Assembly (NCBI GenBank): GCA_016789865.1
Contig: JAEUPC010000230.1
Coordinates: 1-43,692, forward strand
Length of the DNA: 43,692 nt
DNA from: Rubrivivax sp.
GTDB taxonomy: Bacteria > Pseudomonadota > Gammaproteobacteria > Burkholderiales > Burkholderiaceae_C
Reading direction: 5' to 3'
Position 1 is the first letter of the stretch. The number at the start of each line of letters is the position of its first letter. This document shows positions 17,757 through 21,194 of this stretch, piece by piece. Position numbers and translations under genes: made by a program. The notes below the pieces were generated by a model. It saw only the letters and a program-made list of their open reading frames with translations. It made no database searches and was not told the origin of the DNA.

Positions 17757-19085
17757 GTGAGCCCCGCCGTGAGCCGCCCCGTCACCCCGCCGGCCGGGGC
17801 CGGTGGAACGGGCGCGACGAACATGCCGAACATGCCGAACATGTCGAGCGTGCCGAACGTGCCGAACGTGCCGAACGTGCCGAGCGGCGTCGGCCTGTAC
17901 CTGGCCGGCGTGCAGCTGCTGTTTGCTCTGGGCTGGATCACCTACGCGATCTACCTGCCCGAGCTGGCGCAGCAGGTCGGCCTGGAGCGCAAGTGGGTGC
18001 CGTGGATCCTGGCGCTGGACCAGCTTGTCTTCATTGTCACCGACCTTGTGGTGGGCGTGTGGAGCGACAAGGCCGCGAAGGTGCAGGGGCGCATCGCGCG
18101 AGTGGTGCTGCTGGCCACGCTCGTGTCGTCGTTGGCGTTCCTGCTGCTGCCCTGGCTGGCGCCGCAGGGCTCGGCGGCGCTGTTCCTCGGCGTGACGGTG
18201 GTGTGGGCGGTGACATCGTCGGCGCTGCGCGCGCCGCCGCTCACGCTGCTCGGGCGCTACGTGGCCAAGTCGGCGCTGCCGGCGATGGTGGCGTTGATGG
18301 CGCTCGGGCTCGGCCTGGCGAACGCGGCCGCGCCGTACCTGGGGCTCGCGCTCAAGGGCATCGATCCGCGCTGGCCGTTCCTGCTCTCGGCGCTGTCGCT
18401 TGCGGCGGTCACGTTGGGCATGGTGGCCGCCGAGCGTGCACTGGCCCGCCAAGGCGCAGCAGCGACGGGTGCGGGTGCGGTGCCGGCGCCGCCGCCGCCG
18501 CCGATTTCATCGACCAGCGGGGTCTTCCTGGTGGCCGTGGTGATCGCCGCGGTGAGCTTCCAGGTGCATGTCTTCCTGGCCAGTGCGCCGCTGTACCGCG
18601 CTGCCGGTGGGGCGGCATGGATCTCGCACCTGATGCCCGTGTTCTGGGTCGGGTTCAACCTGGCGTTGTGGCCCGCGGCACGCTGGGTGAAGCGTGTCGG
18701 CGCACCGCTGGCGATGGCGCAGGCCGCCGTGGCCGGGGCGTTGGCGGTGGCTGCGGCCCATGCCGCTGGCCACACCGCGCCGAACCTGCCCGCGCTGGTG
18801 GTGTCGCAGCTGGCGGCCGGCGCGGCCTGGGCGGGGATGCTGTGCAGCGCCTTCATCGGATCGCTGGCCTTCGGCAAGACCGGCCGCGAAGGGTTCTTCA
18901 ACGGCTCGCTGCAATCGCTGCTGGCGGTGGCGGCCCTGTCGCGCCTGTTGATGGTGGTGCTCGTCGCACCGACGCCGCAGCAGCTGGTGGCCTGGGCCGG
19001 GTTGCCGGCGCTGAGCTTCGCACTGGCTGGCCTGTTGATGGTGGCCGCGCTGGCGCGGCTGCGCGGGTGGCCGGCGACGAAGTAG
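17757..19085 (+). CDS. MFS transporter with a repetitive N-terminal tail
   Basis: The GTG at 17757 follows CCGGAG at a good distance. The 442-residue product has about twelve hydrophobic segments, beginning GLYLAGVQLLFALGWITYAI near residue 43. The loop GVWSDKAAKVQGRIAR after the second segment is the MFS signature region. The first ~40 residues are not membrane-spanning and consist of a Pro/Gly stretch followed by Asn-Met/Val-Pro repeats encoded by seven 9-bp units. It is 42 bp downstream of the SDR and is the last gene before a 484-bp noncoding region, so it probably imports or exports a substrate of the locus. It may complement the ABC importer, for example as tetronate uptake; this is inference. 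Confidence 0.85.
   Translation: MSPAVSRPVTPPAGAGGTGATNMPNMPNMSSVPNVPNVPNVPSGVGLYLAGVQLLFALGWITYAIYLPELAQQVGLERKWVPWILALDQLVFIVTDLVVGVWSDKAAKVQGRIARVVLLATLVSSLAFLLLPWLAPQGSAALFLGVTVVWAVTSSALRAPPLTLLGRYVAKSALPAMVALMALGLGLANAAAPYLGLALKGIDPRWPFLLSALSLAAVTLGMVAAERALARQGAAATGAGAVPAPPPPPISSTSGVFLVAVVIAAVSFQVHVFLASAPLYRAAGGAAWISHLMPVFWVGFNLALWPAARWVKRVGAPLAMAQAAVAGALAVAAAHAAGHTAPNLPALVVSQLAAGAAWAGMLCSAFIGSLAFGKTGREGFFNGSLQSLLAVAALSRLLMVVLVAPTPQQLVAWAGLPALSFALAGLLMVAALARLRGWPATK
17820..17882 (+). repeat. Seven 9-bp tandem repeats inside the MFS gene
   Basis: Units read AACATGCCG twice, AACATGTCG, AGCGTGCCG, then AACGTGCCG three times. They encode Asn/Ser-Met/Val-Pro/Ser tripeptides in the predicted cytoplasmic tail. 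Because units are a multiple of three, copy-number change would keep the frame. Confidence 0.9.
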
Positions 19086-19253
19086 CTGCGCGGGGCTGAA
19101 GGACCGGCGCCCTGCCTCGCCCGGCGCCCGCGCTGATGGCGGGTCTTGTCGCTGCCTGCGCGGCGGGTGGGTCGCGCCGGTCCGGTCCTGACGACTCATG
19201 CGCACTTGCGTTCGAAAACACAGAAAGGCCTTCGACGAGGTGGTGGCGCCGAG

Positions 19254-19354
19254 GACGCCGGGTGGTCGGCTCCGCGAATGTCCTTTTTCAGCGGCCCAGC
19301 TTCGCTGGACCCCTGAATGCATCCTCTATTTCGCTGCGCCGACCACCCGCCGTC
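19254..19354 (+). repeat. Structured repeat element, copy 1
   Basis: The basal stem pairs GGGTGGTCGGC (19260-19270) with GCCGACCACCC (19338-19348) and extends outward for five more pairs with one mismatch, to 19254/19354. Inside are GCGAA (19274-19278) with TTCGC (19330-19334), TTCAG (19287-19291) with CTGAA (19313-19317), and the apical hairpin CCAGC-TTC-GCTGG (19296-19308). The 71-bp core (19269-19339) is about 85% identical, by hand alignment, to the reverse complement of copy 2, while the outer stem differs. It could be a MITE/REP-like element or a structured RNA. Confidence 0.75.
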
Positions 19355-19360
19355 GTCGGT

Positions 19361-19405
19361 GGCACCTGGGTGGGTCTTCGTCGGCCAAGTCCCGACGCGG
19401 GTGCC
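19361..19405. repeat. Spacer hairpin between the two structured elements
   Basis: GGCACC (19361-19366) pairs with GGTGCC (19400-19405), and CGTCGG (19379-19384) with CCGACG (19392-19397). The DNA between the two larger hairpins is thus itself foldable. Confidence 0.5.
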
Positions 19406-19522
19406 GGATCGGGACGACGGGGTGCCCTGCGCAGCGAAATCAAGGGGGCATGCGGGGGACCGGCGAAGCTGGGCCGCCGCAAGAGGACATTCGCGGAGCA
19501 GGGCACCCCGTCGGCCCGATCC
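19406..19522 (-). repeat. Structured repeat element, copy 2 (inverted)
   Basis: The basal stem joins 19406-19430 to 19498-19522: 25 positions with one mismatch (19414/19514), including GGGGTGCCCTGC and GCAGGGCACCCC. Inner pairs are TGCGG (19451-19455) with CCGCA (19477-19481), and the apical CCGGC-GAA-GCTGG (19460-19472), which contains GCGAAGC. Read on the minus strand the core aligns to copy 1. The basal stem has a different sequence from copy 1 but is equally well paired, and the inner stem differs by two compensatory changes. Confidence 0.75.
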
Positions 19523-19569
19523 CGCCACGGTCTCTTGCCCTGACCTGTTCGATCGATCGCGAAGCCGTA

Positions 19570-20262
19570 TCAGAACAGCGTGTTCGCCTGCCGCTGCTGG
19601 AGTTCGCCGTCGTACGCGGCGCCGTCGATCGAGCGCCCGCTCAGGCACTCGAGGATCGCGCCGGGCGTGGGCAGCGCGCCGCGCTGCACATGCCGCGCCG
19701 GGTTCCACAGCTGGCTGCGCTTGATGGCGCGCGCGCACTGGAAGTAGCACGAGGTCACCGTGACCACGAGCACCGAGGCCGGCAGCTGGCCCGAGACGGC
19801 GAAGCGCTCGCGCAGGGCCGGCAGCGCGCTGATGCGCGCGTTGCCGTTGACGCGCAGCGCCTCGCCGAGGCCGGGCACCAGGAACAGCAGCGTCACGCGC
19901 GGGTCGCGCGCGATGTTGGTGAGGCTGTCGATGCGCTGGTTGCCGCGCCGGTCGGGCAGCAGCAGCGTCTTCTCGTCGAGCACAAGCACGAAGCCCGGCG
20001 CGTCGCCGCGCGGCGAGGTGTCCAAGCCGTGCTCGCCCACCGTGGCCAGCACCGCAAAGGGGCTGGCCTCGATGTACGGCCGGTACAGCGGGTGGATGTG
20101 GTCGGCGACCTTGGCCAGCGAGGTGGCACCGGGGCCGGTGCTGTAGGCGCGGCGCAGCGCGGCGGTGTCGGTCAGGTCGGCCGAGGTGTCGGCGGCCAGC
20201 GCGCGCAGGTCGTCGGCGGGCGAGGGAGGCATGAGGCTGCGCGCAGTGGCTGTCTGCTCCAT
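19570..20262 (-). CDS. Pyridoxamine 5'-phosphate oxidase-family (PPOX) flavin-binding protein
   Basis: The start ATG ends at 20262, overlapping the argF stop, giving 230 residues. The split-barrel FMN fold is indicated by HIHPLYRPYIEASPFAVLATVG, followed by GLDTSPRGDAPGFVLVLD, LLLPDRRGNQRIDSLTNI and RVTLLFLVPGLGEALRVNG. These match the MSMEG_1061-type PPOX family, which binds FMN or a related flavin; the substrate is unknown. The C-terminal CYFQCARAIKRSQLWNPARH is also typical. It is the third gene of the argD-argF unit by overlap, although it has no known role in arginine synthesis; a housekeeping redox function is likely. A later Met ten residues in (MPPSPADD) could also start translation. 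Confidence 0.87.
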   Translation of the reverse strand: MEQTATARSLMPPSPADDLRALAADTSADLTDTAALRRAYSTGPGATSLAKVADHIHPLYRPYIEASPFAVLATVGEHGLDTSPRGDAPGFVLVLDEKTLLLPDRRGNQRIDSLTNIARDPRVTLLFLVPGLGEALRVNGNARISALPALRERFAVSGQLPASVLVVTVTSCYFQCARAIKRSQLWNPARHVQRGALPTPGAILECLSGRSIDGAAYDGELQQRQANTLF

Positions 20263-21194
20263 CAACCGATGCGGCCCAGCAGCAGGTACTCCATGAGCGC
20301 CTTCTGAACGTGCATGCGGTTCTCGGCTTCGTCCCACACCACCGACTGCGGGCCGTCGAGGACCTCGGCGGTGACCTCCTCGCCGCGGTGTGCGGGCAGG
20401 CAGTGCATGAACAGCGCATCGCGCTGCGCCACGGCCATCATCTCGTCGTCGACGCACCAGTCGACGAAGGCCTTGCGGCGTTCTTCGTTCTGGGCCTCGT
20501 AGCCCATGCTCGTCCACACGTCGGTGGTGACGAGGTGGGCGCCCTCGCAGGCCTGCATCGGGTGGTCGAAGACGCGGTAGCAGGAGCGGTCGGCGATGCC
20601 GGCCACGGCCGGGTCGACCTCGTAGCCGCCGGGCGTGCTGATGTGCACCGTGAAGCCCATCACCTCGGCGGCCTGCAGCCAGGTGTTGGCCATGTTGTTG
20701 CCGTCGCCGACCCAGGCCACGGTCTTGCCCTGGATCGAGCCGCGGTGCTCGATGAAGGTGAAGATGTCGGCCAGGATCTGGCAGGGGTGGTACTCGTTGG
20801 TCAGGCCGTTGATCACCGGCACCCGCGAGTGCGCAGCGAAGCGCTCGATCTTGGCCTGCTCGTAGGTGCGGATCATCACCAGATCCACCATGCGGCTGAT
20901 GACCCGCGCGGTGTCTTCCACTGGCTCGGCACGGCCCAGGTGCGTGTCGCCGGTGGTGAGGTGCACCACCGAGCCGCCCATCTGGTACATGCCGGCCTCG
21001 AAGCTGACGCGCGTGCGCGTGCTGGCCTTCTCGAAGATCATTGCCAGCGTTCGGTCCACCAGTGGCTGGTAGCGCTCGTAGTTCTTGAAGCGCGACTTGA
21101 TGATCCTGGTGCGTTCGAAGAGGTAGCCGTACTCCTCGGCGCGCAGGTCCTTGATCTGCAGGAAGTGCCTCGACAGCCCGGGCGCAGGCTTCAT
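20262..21194 (-). CDS. argF: Ornithine carbamoyltransferase
   Basis: The 310-residue protein begins MKPAPGLSRHFLQIKDL at the ATG ending at 21194, overlapping the upstream argD stop by 4 bp. The carbamoyl-phosphate site STRTR is at 58-62, HPCQ near 135 and the ornithine/catalytic HCLP near 267, with VWTSMG before it. It condenses carbamoyl phosphate with ornithine to citrulline in arginine synthesis, acting as a cytoplasmic trimer. The longer open frame extending upstream runs antisense-like through argD and is not used. The argD-argF pair is a common betaproteobacterial arrangement. The PPOX gene downstream also overlaps by ATGA. Confidence 0.96.
   Translation of the reverse strand: MKPAPGLSRHFLQIKDLRAEEYGYLFERTRIIKSRFKNYERYQPLVDRTLAMIFEKASTRTRVSFEAGMYQMGGSVVHLTTGDTHLGRAEPVEDTARVISRMVDLVMIRTYEQAKIERFAAHSRVPVINGLTNEYHPCQILADIFTFIEHRGSIQGKTVAWVGDGNNMANTWLQAAEVMGFTVHISTPGGYEVDPAVAGIADRSCYRVFDHPMQACEGAHLVTTDVWTSMGYEAQNEERRKAFVDWCVDDEMMAVAQRDALFMHCLPAHRGEEVTAEVLDGPQSVVWDEAENRMHVQKALMEYLLLGRIG

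Follow-up and report, generated by a model that had tools for sequence, protein, structure and literature searches.

The inverted pair of hairpins at about 19247-19522 of the window, by which we mean the whole 43,692-nucleotide stretch of Rubrivivax sp. DNA that was analysed, belongs, outer stems included, to a repeated family, of which it forms a single inverted doublet. Across this family, we observe a strand-specific structure under selection, a doublet architecture, and repeated spread and decay. On balance, we lean towards reading the pair as a copy of a non-autonomous, REPIN-like mobile element, the ends of which are recognised as folded single-stranded DNA.

The window pair and its surroundings

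The pair sits between two convergent genes, which end at 19085 and 19570. The features of this region are:

17757..19085, plus strand: flanking gene of the major facilitator family (PF07690), context only
19196..19198: TCA, left copy of a putative 3-bp target duplication
19199..19569: 371-bp MITE-like unit carrying the window doublet, seen in an alignment of 16 long copies
19199..19216, plus strand: left imperfect terminal inverted repeat, 2 mismatches to the consensus
19247..19361, minus strand: hairpin unit A; the minus strand is inferred to fold from the family-wide wobble bias
19362..19403: spacer between units A and B, with a weak stem of its own (GGCACC/GGTGCC)
19404..19522, plus strand: hairpin unit B, inverted with respect to A; the plus strand is inferred to fold from the family-wide wobble bias
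19552..19569, minus strand: right imperfect terminal inverted repeat, 0 mismatches to the consensus
19570..19572: TCA, right copy of the putative duplication, identical with the TGA stop codon of the minus-strand gene
19570..20517, minus strand: convergent flanking gene with a pyridoxamine 5'-phosphate oxidase domain (PF01243), context only

The inverted arms (19260-19348 and 19420-19508) are 81% complementary across 89 nt. In addition, each copy has a stem of its own, which spans 37 nt at 84% in copy A (19242-19278/19330-19366) and 36 nt at 89% in copy B (19403-19438/19490-19525), and both units out-fold 200 of 200 dinucleotide-shuffled sequences, whichever strand is taken (z -7.7 to -8.2). 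These values agree with the sequence-only reading of this DNA, which had described two inverted copies, each within a long basal stem; the inner-stem change from TTCAG/CTGAA to TGCGG/CCGCA that it had pointed out, paired on both sides, is also found in the two window units. Its view of two elements held in part, as both copies are real, but they are not independent and form one composite inverted doublet with fixed spacing. Of the insertion into hairpin loops that it had considered, we saw no sign.

The observation in the window is confirmed and is larger than two copies. Chance is no explanation for the pair, since there are 15 other near-full-length copies in the genome and the stem beats shuffles over 79 units. 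At the gathering score, none of the 4227 Rfam families matches the window, and the hits below threshold are miRNA or snoRNA look-alikes only. Hence, none of the outcomes that had been named beforehand as speaking against the sequence-only reading, namely a restriction to two copies, a lack of covariation or identity with a known terminator, occurred.

Copy number and distribution

Within the window's own genome, 80 matches were found and grouped by hand into 40 places; 40 of the 110 first-look candidates were scored for this count, and more places are possible. The 15 other near-full-length copies are 93-98% identical and, together with the 40 places, support a recent spread. Moreover, the genome contains nine full doublets of 74-81% identity. 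Since the sequence beyond the doublet is unrelated in these nine cases, the doublet is the older repeated thing. The suggestion of a REP-like or MITE-like repeat, made from the window alone, is supported.

In a first search of 61 genomes, 11 matched, in one genus of the 25. An exact pattern scan of named genomes returned at least 116 stretches, which is a lower bound and no random sample; as the pattern fixes many core letters, their conservation in this set is by construction and the free letters alone count as evidence. Among the matches listed, most belong to Comamonadaceae and other Burkholderiales genera (Rhodoferax, Hydrogenophaga, Variovorax, Rubrivivax, Ramlibacter, Polaromonas, Aquabacterium, Caldimonas), alongside a few others, e.g. 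Sulfurisoma and two MAGs, of Rhodocyclales and of Stagnimonas. Within the window's family, 100 of 299 genomes match by pattern, with a maximum of 66 matches per genome, although some single matches in this table look like chance by sequence; two matches were noticed in the reversed-pattern control of the family table. In the other families of the class, 3 of 149 genomes match: G371 carries five canonical units, and the remaining two have one match each with a chance-like sequence. One query of phage records gave no match. Searches of the literature, which included the core strings and had subscription journals mostly outside their coverage, found no paper describing the repeat; the sequence-only reading had no name for the element, and none was found here either.

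The 371-bp unit

The doublet in the window lies within a unit of 371 bp, the inverted ends of which are imperfect and 18 bp long; this unit is present in about 16 near-identical copies in the genome; doublets elsewhere occur without the ends of this unit. At both borders of the unit stands a TSA triplet, the middle letter of which is equal at the two borders in 13 of 15 copies (Fisher p 0.017), and all three letters agree in 9 of 15. The triplet is the TGA stop of a Pfam-supported in-frame flanking gene in 8 of the 15 copies, the stop being retained, and three further copies end open frames of 193-258 codons without Pfam match. The remaining copies are ambiguous, at a contig end, or off any stop.

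The sister genome G009 is without the element and has CTGAG at the same stop codon, with 95 bp in place of the 460 bp of the window between flanks of 90-93% identity. The intergenic stretch of G009 differs as well, and the site is not a clean empty site. An IS5-like parent of the 371-bp unit was sought in the window's own genome (G000, 76.86% complete) by the domains PF01609 and PF13359, which are both absent there, and none was found.

A second MITE-like repeat of about 103-105 bp has the inverted ends TACGGCTTCGCATTCAAY and is bordered by TCA/TCA or TGA/TGA. It was seen at L235:532-636 and L236:447-549 (G000, C38 and C228), with further close pairs in C17, C70, C71, C82 and C103, and has ends and target in common with the 371-bp unit.

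Covariation, folding strand and core

A unit comprises about 105-120 nt and consists of an outer stem of about 24 bp, the sequence of which is free, a core that is conserved, and an apical hairpin that is likewise free. The outer stem of 79 aligned units from many species contains 24 pairs, 23 of them with double changes. In this stem, 95.0% of the cells are paired, compared to 62.9% with partners re-dealt and 35-46% when slid, and there are 639 double-change cells compared to 175.5 after shuffling, related units being counted as independent here as well as in the wobble and core coupling counts. On four of five measures, the stem beats 500 of 500 shuffles; the fifth, which counts the pairs showing a double change (23), is reached by 16 of 500 and is less telling. 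The covariation of the outer stem is overwhelming, and the selection for structure that had been proposed from two copies is thereby upheld over the family.

The mismatches also identify the strand that folds. In the first 13 pairs of 115 non-redundant units, we counted 1275 Watson-Crick pairs, 156 A.C, 12 G.T and 52 others on the ATGTCC strand. Read on the complement, this corresponds to 156 G.T/U versus 12 A.C, and it is therefore the complement of the ATGTCC strand that is kept foldable. In the apical stems, the wobble bias is not significant (45 G.T, 30 A.C, p 0.105). The distinct apical hairpins, folded with RNA parameters, have triloops in 90 of 116 cases and C(GNA)G in 68 of 116, with one GNRA and one UUCG loop. 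GNA triloops are unusually stable in DNA. The prevalence of C(GNA)G suggests that the folded molecule is DNA and not RNA, and it is our main, though indirect, reason for preferring DNA.

Free letters of the core are coupled to each other. In 127 units, GA occurs with T in 62 and TC with C in 62, compared to two units of GA with C and one of GT with T. A second coupling in the same 127 units combines C with T (90) or T with C (33), T with T (3) and C with C (1) making up the rest. Watson-Crick pairing of these letters is impossible on the ATGTCC strand; read on the folding strand, the first coupling would set G-C/A-U against tandem G.A/A.G, and the second A.G against G.A. Downstream (3') of a tyrosyl-tRNA-synthetase-type gene, a label for which Pfam PF00579 was tested on one locus, three loci have AGTGAGGT/GACACGAACG and two have AGCGAAAT/GACATTCGCG, which, judged from these sequences, would fit a compensatory change inside the core.

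Arrangement, gain and loss of units

The units at the 116 loci form 56 doublets and 66 singles. All doublets except one are inverted in a single arrangement (55 of 56), and the gap is 91-111 bp in 54 of the 56 and 143 and 152 bp in the other two. The sole doublet in the opposite arrangement (L188:6324-6572) has the same gap, 95 bp. At L215:1452-1976 (G142), two tandem doublets follow each other at 336 bp start to start and resemble REPIN tandem clusters. In 53 doublets, the ends of the spacer pair at -12.8 versus -11.2 when re-dealt (sd 0.47, 0 of 200 as low), and the outer flanks likewise pair above the re-dealt level (z -2.0 to -4.6). Together, these values hint at a closing stem and a spacer stem. 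Singles are paired at 0.928 and doublet units at 0.957 (p 0.084), and a difference in decay is not clear from these values.

Gene calls for neighbours, context and stop codons were composition-based, and 15 units fell inside such a call; on this basis, the 94 groups with both neighbours assessable divide into 58 tandem, 31 convergent and 5 divergent contexts, and the singles in tandem contexts into 13 sense and 15 antisense. A stop codon precedes the core by at least 48 bp in 69 of 70 cases, and the one exception, with the stop codon at 33, could stem from an error in the gene calls. Among the 17 printed cases at 99-129 bp, six were seen by eye to have a terminator-like hairpin with a T-run between the stop codon and the unit. 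With a separate terminator before it, the unit is not the terminator in those six cases. The consensus of the unit, again judged by eye, has no T-run after the stem.

At a Variovorax site with both flanks 96% identical, about 185 bp have been lost between two CCCCG stretches, and the outer ends are left. Judging from this site, single units probably originate as remnants of doublets by deletion. At a second Variovorax site, with about 96% identity, both strains carry the element; the search of Variovorax replicons for a generic doublet's clean empty site yielded a partial deletion and remnants instead. Units are retained in several species 3' of the tyrosyl-tRNA-synthetase-type gene (5 loci) and 3' of a LigB-type gene (4 aligned loci). 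Copies come and go between relatives, yet persist at orthologous sites.

Apart from the close doublets, some pairs of units stand 1.3-3.5 kb apart and enclose accessory genes (L214:1708-3110, L216:1456-3394, L217:1359-4972), among them those for an Mrr-type nuclease, a HipA/HTH pair and an HNH protein. Units may serve as homology for gene gain.

Search for a partner enzyme

The sequence-only reading had proposed to look for a linked REP-associated tyrosine transposase (RAYT), and such a link did not emerge. PF01797 is missing both from the window's genome and from G012, a 99% complete genome with many copies. In a hand count over the 299 family genomes, this domain, which covers non-RAYT transposases too, so that the test concerns the domain, is found in 31 of 42 genomes with at least four matches and in 190 of 257 others (Fisher p 1.0). 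None of 14 PF01797 loci of 6 kb carries a unit by the loose pattern, and a very loose pattern gave two short matches on them. By the distribution and linkage of PF01797, we reject RAYT as the partner, and the searches brought up no other candidate.

Among the genes within 1.5 kb of units, there is no recurrent transposase. A recurrent neighbour as the partner was also rejected because the neighbour clusters (ABC transporters, carboxylases, the LigB-type and the synthetase-type gene) are ordinary genes common to orthologous sites. The same applies to an autonomous version, in which two units would enclose a gene: in two genomes, with 56-66 matches each, the listed units are either close doublets or far apart. 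The wider unit pairs that were fetched contain accessory genes and no recognised transposase. In the window's genome, two copies at a distance of 0.7 kb enclose an FMN-reductase-type gene.

Interpretation and alternatives

As a REPIN-like mobile element, the doublet would depend on an enzyme that binds or cuts DNA and is other than a PF01797 transposase. Whenever the strand becomes exposed, as during replication, this enzyme would read the core at each of the folded ends and would copy or move the doublet, which would be the moving unit, with single units as its remnants. In the window's genome, one doublet is carried in the 371-bp unit with its short terminal inverted repeats and TSA target, and this unit has spread to about 16 near-identical copies. 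In its most specific form, this is a tentative proposal: the family possibly spreads without RAYT, and a putative enzyme reads the folded single-stranded DNA ends via a core coupled by non-Watson-Crick purine pairs (GA/TC, A/G), with free stems above and below it. Against a mobile element stand the lack of a mobiliser, of a recurrent transposase nearby and of a clean empty site in our searches, as well as the apical stems, which show no significant wobble bias, and the singles, which are not clearly more decayed than doublet units; the long persistence 3' of the synthetase-type gene at 5 loci would also fit a host function.

Strong covariation and G.U-type wobble on one strand are what a structured RNA would leave, and the location mostly 3' of genes, with divergent contexts rare (5 of 94 assessable groups), fits a folding strand that acts as RNA, e.g. 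in the 3' regions of messages, where it might serve stability, RNase III processing or protein binding. We nevertheless consider this rather unlikely since singles in tandem contexts show no orientation bias (13 sense versus 15 antisense), and between convergent genes the geometry is such that each message meets the non-folding strand of the doublet first. Furthermore, the apical loops are of the DNA type, terminators precede the unit in several cases, and no Rfam family matches in the window at the gathering score. BIMEs in enterobacteria have been proposed as sites that bind gyrase, IHF or other chromosome proteins. Sites of this kind, once mobile and now kept in place for use by the host chromosome, would account for the orthologous retention with compensatory change, core included, at the 5 synthetase and 4 LigB-type loci, and for a presence that is wide but patchy (100 of 299 family genomes). 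However, the pattern is absent from the other 199 of 299, which argues against an essential role, and the recent multiplication in the window's genome does not fit either, making this explanation an unlikely one.

Quasi-palindrome correction is a known mutational process, and template switching at hairpins could in this way keep stems palindromic without selection, leaving the element as inert debris. However, this process predicts no strand difference, whereas the mismatches stand at 156 to 12, and it neither conserves a non-palindromic core nor couples the letters of this core; we regard it as very unlikely. Ordinary bidirectional intrinsic terminators that became alike by convergence would share the intergenic location and the strong hairpins, but a conserved core common to unrelated loci and genera, a consensus without a T-run after the stem and the separate terminators upstream leave hardly any room for them. 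A REPIN-like mobile element is the reading that we prefer.

Relation to known systems

IS5/IS1031-type MITEs follow a TNA target rule. The 371-bp unit likewise ends in imperfect terminal inverted repeats of 18 bp, with TSA on either side, but no transposase was found for it, and doublets elsewhere are without its ends. Integron attC sites recombine in the form of a single folded strand, the apical part of which is free, and in this they are like the present element, which differs in being dispersed as single doublets and not in arrays, and in having no attC consensus. In enterobacteria, BIMEs are alternating inverted palindromes at gene 3' ends, as found here; in contrast to them, the present element usually is one doublet, with larger units, a different sequence and no adjoining RAYT gene.

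The element has the architecture of the REPs with RAYTs described in PMC2817692, in which BIMEs are mentioned as well, and differs from them in size, in its core and in the lack of the enzyme. A REP-type GTRG or CGTC head is not seen as an invariant column in the A2 alignment, which ends near the foot of the outer stem. In a term search, the main text of PMC3733652 has no mention of Variovorax, Polaromonas, Acidovorax, Burkholderia or Delftia. The host bacteria of the present element are a common and genetically tractable group in which the enzyme could be found, and the coupled core letters provide a direct handle for binding tests.

The REPINs or REP doublets of Pseudomonas and others (PMC3116915) have inverted palindromic ends, a near-constant spacer, an intergenic location, many copies, compensatory changes and singles explained as what deletion has left, and all those features are common to the present element. 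However, the units of REPINs measure 20-40 bp, compared to about 105-120 nt here, with two nested stems and a conserved core, and neither distribution nor linkage points to PF01797 as a partner of the present element. A single enzyme family goes with REPINs; if true, their architecture in a family with larger ends and without this enzyme would imply more than one origin of folded-DNA repeat populations.
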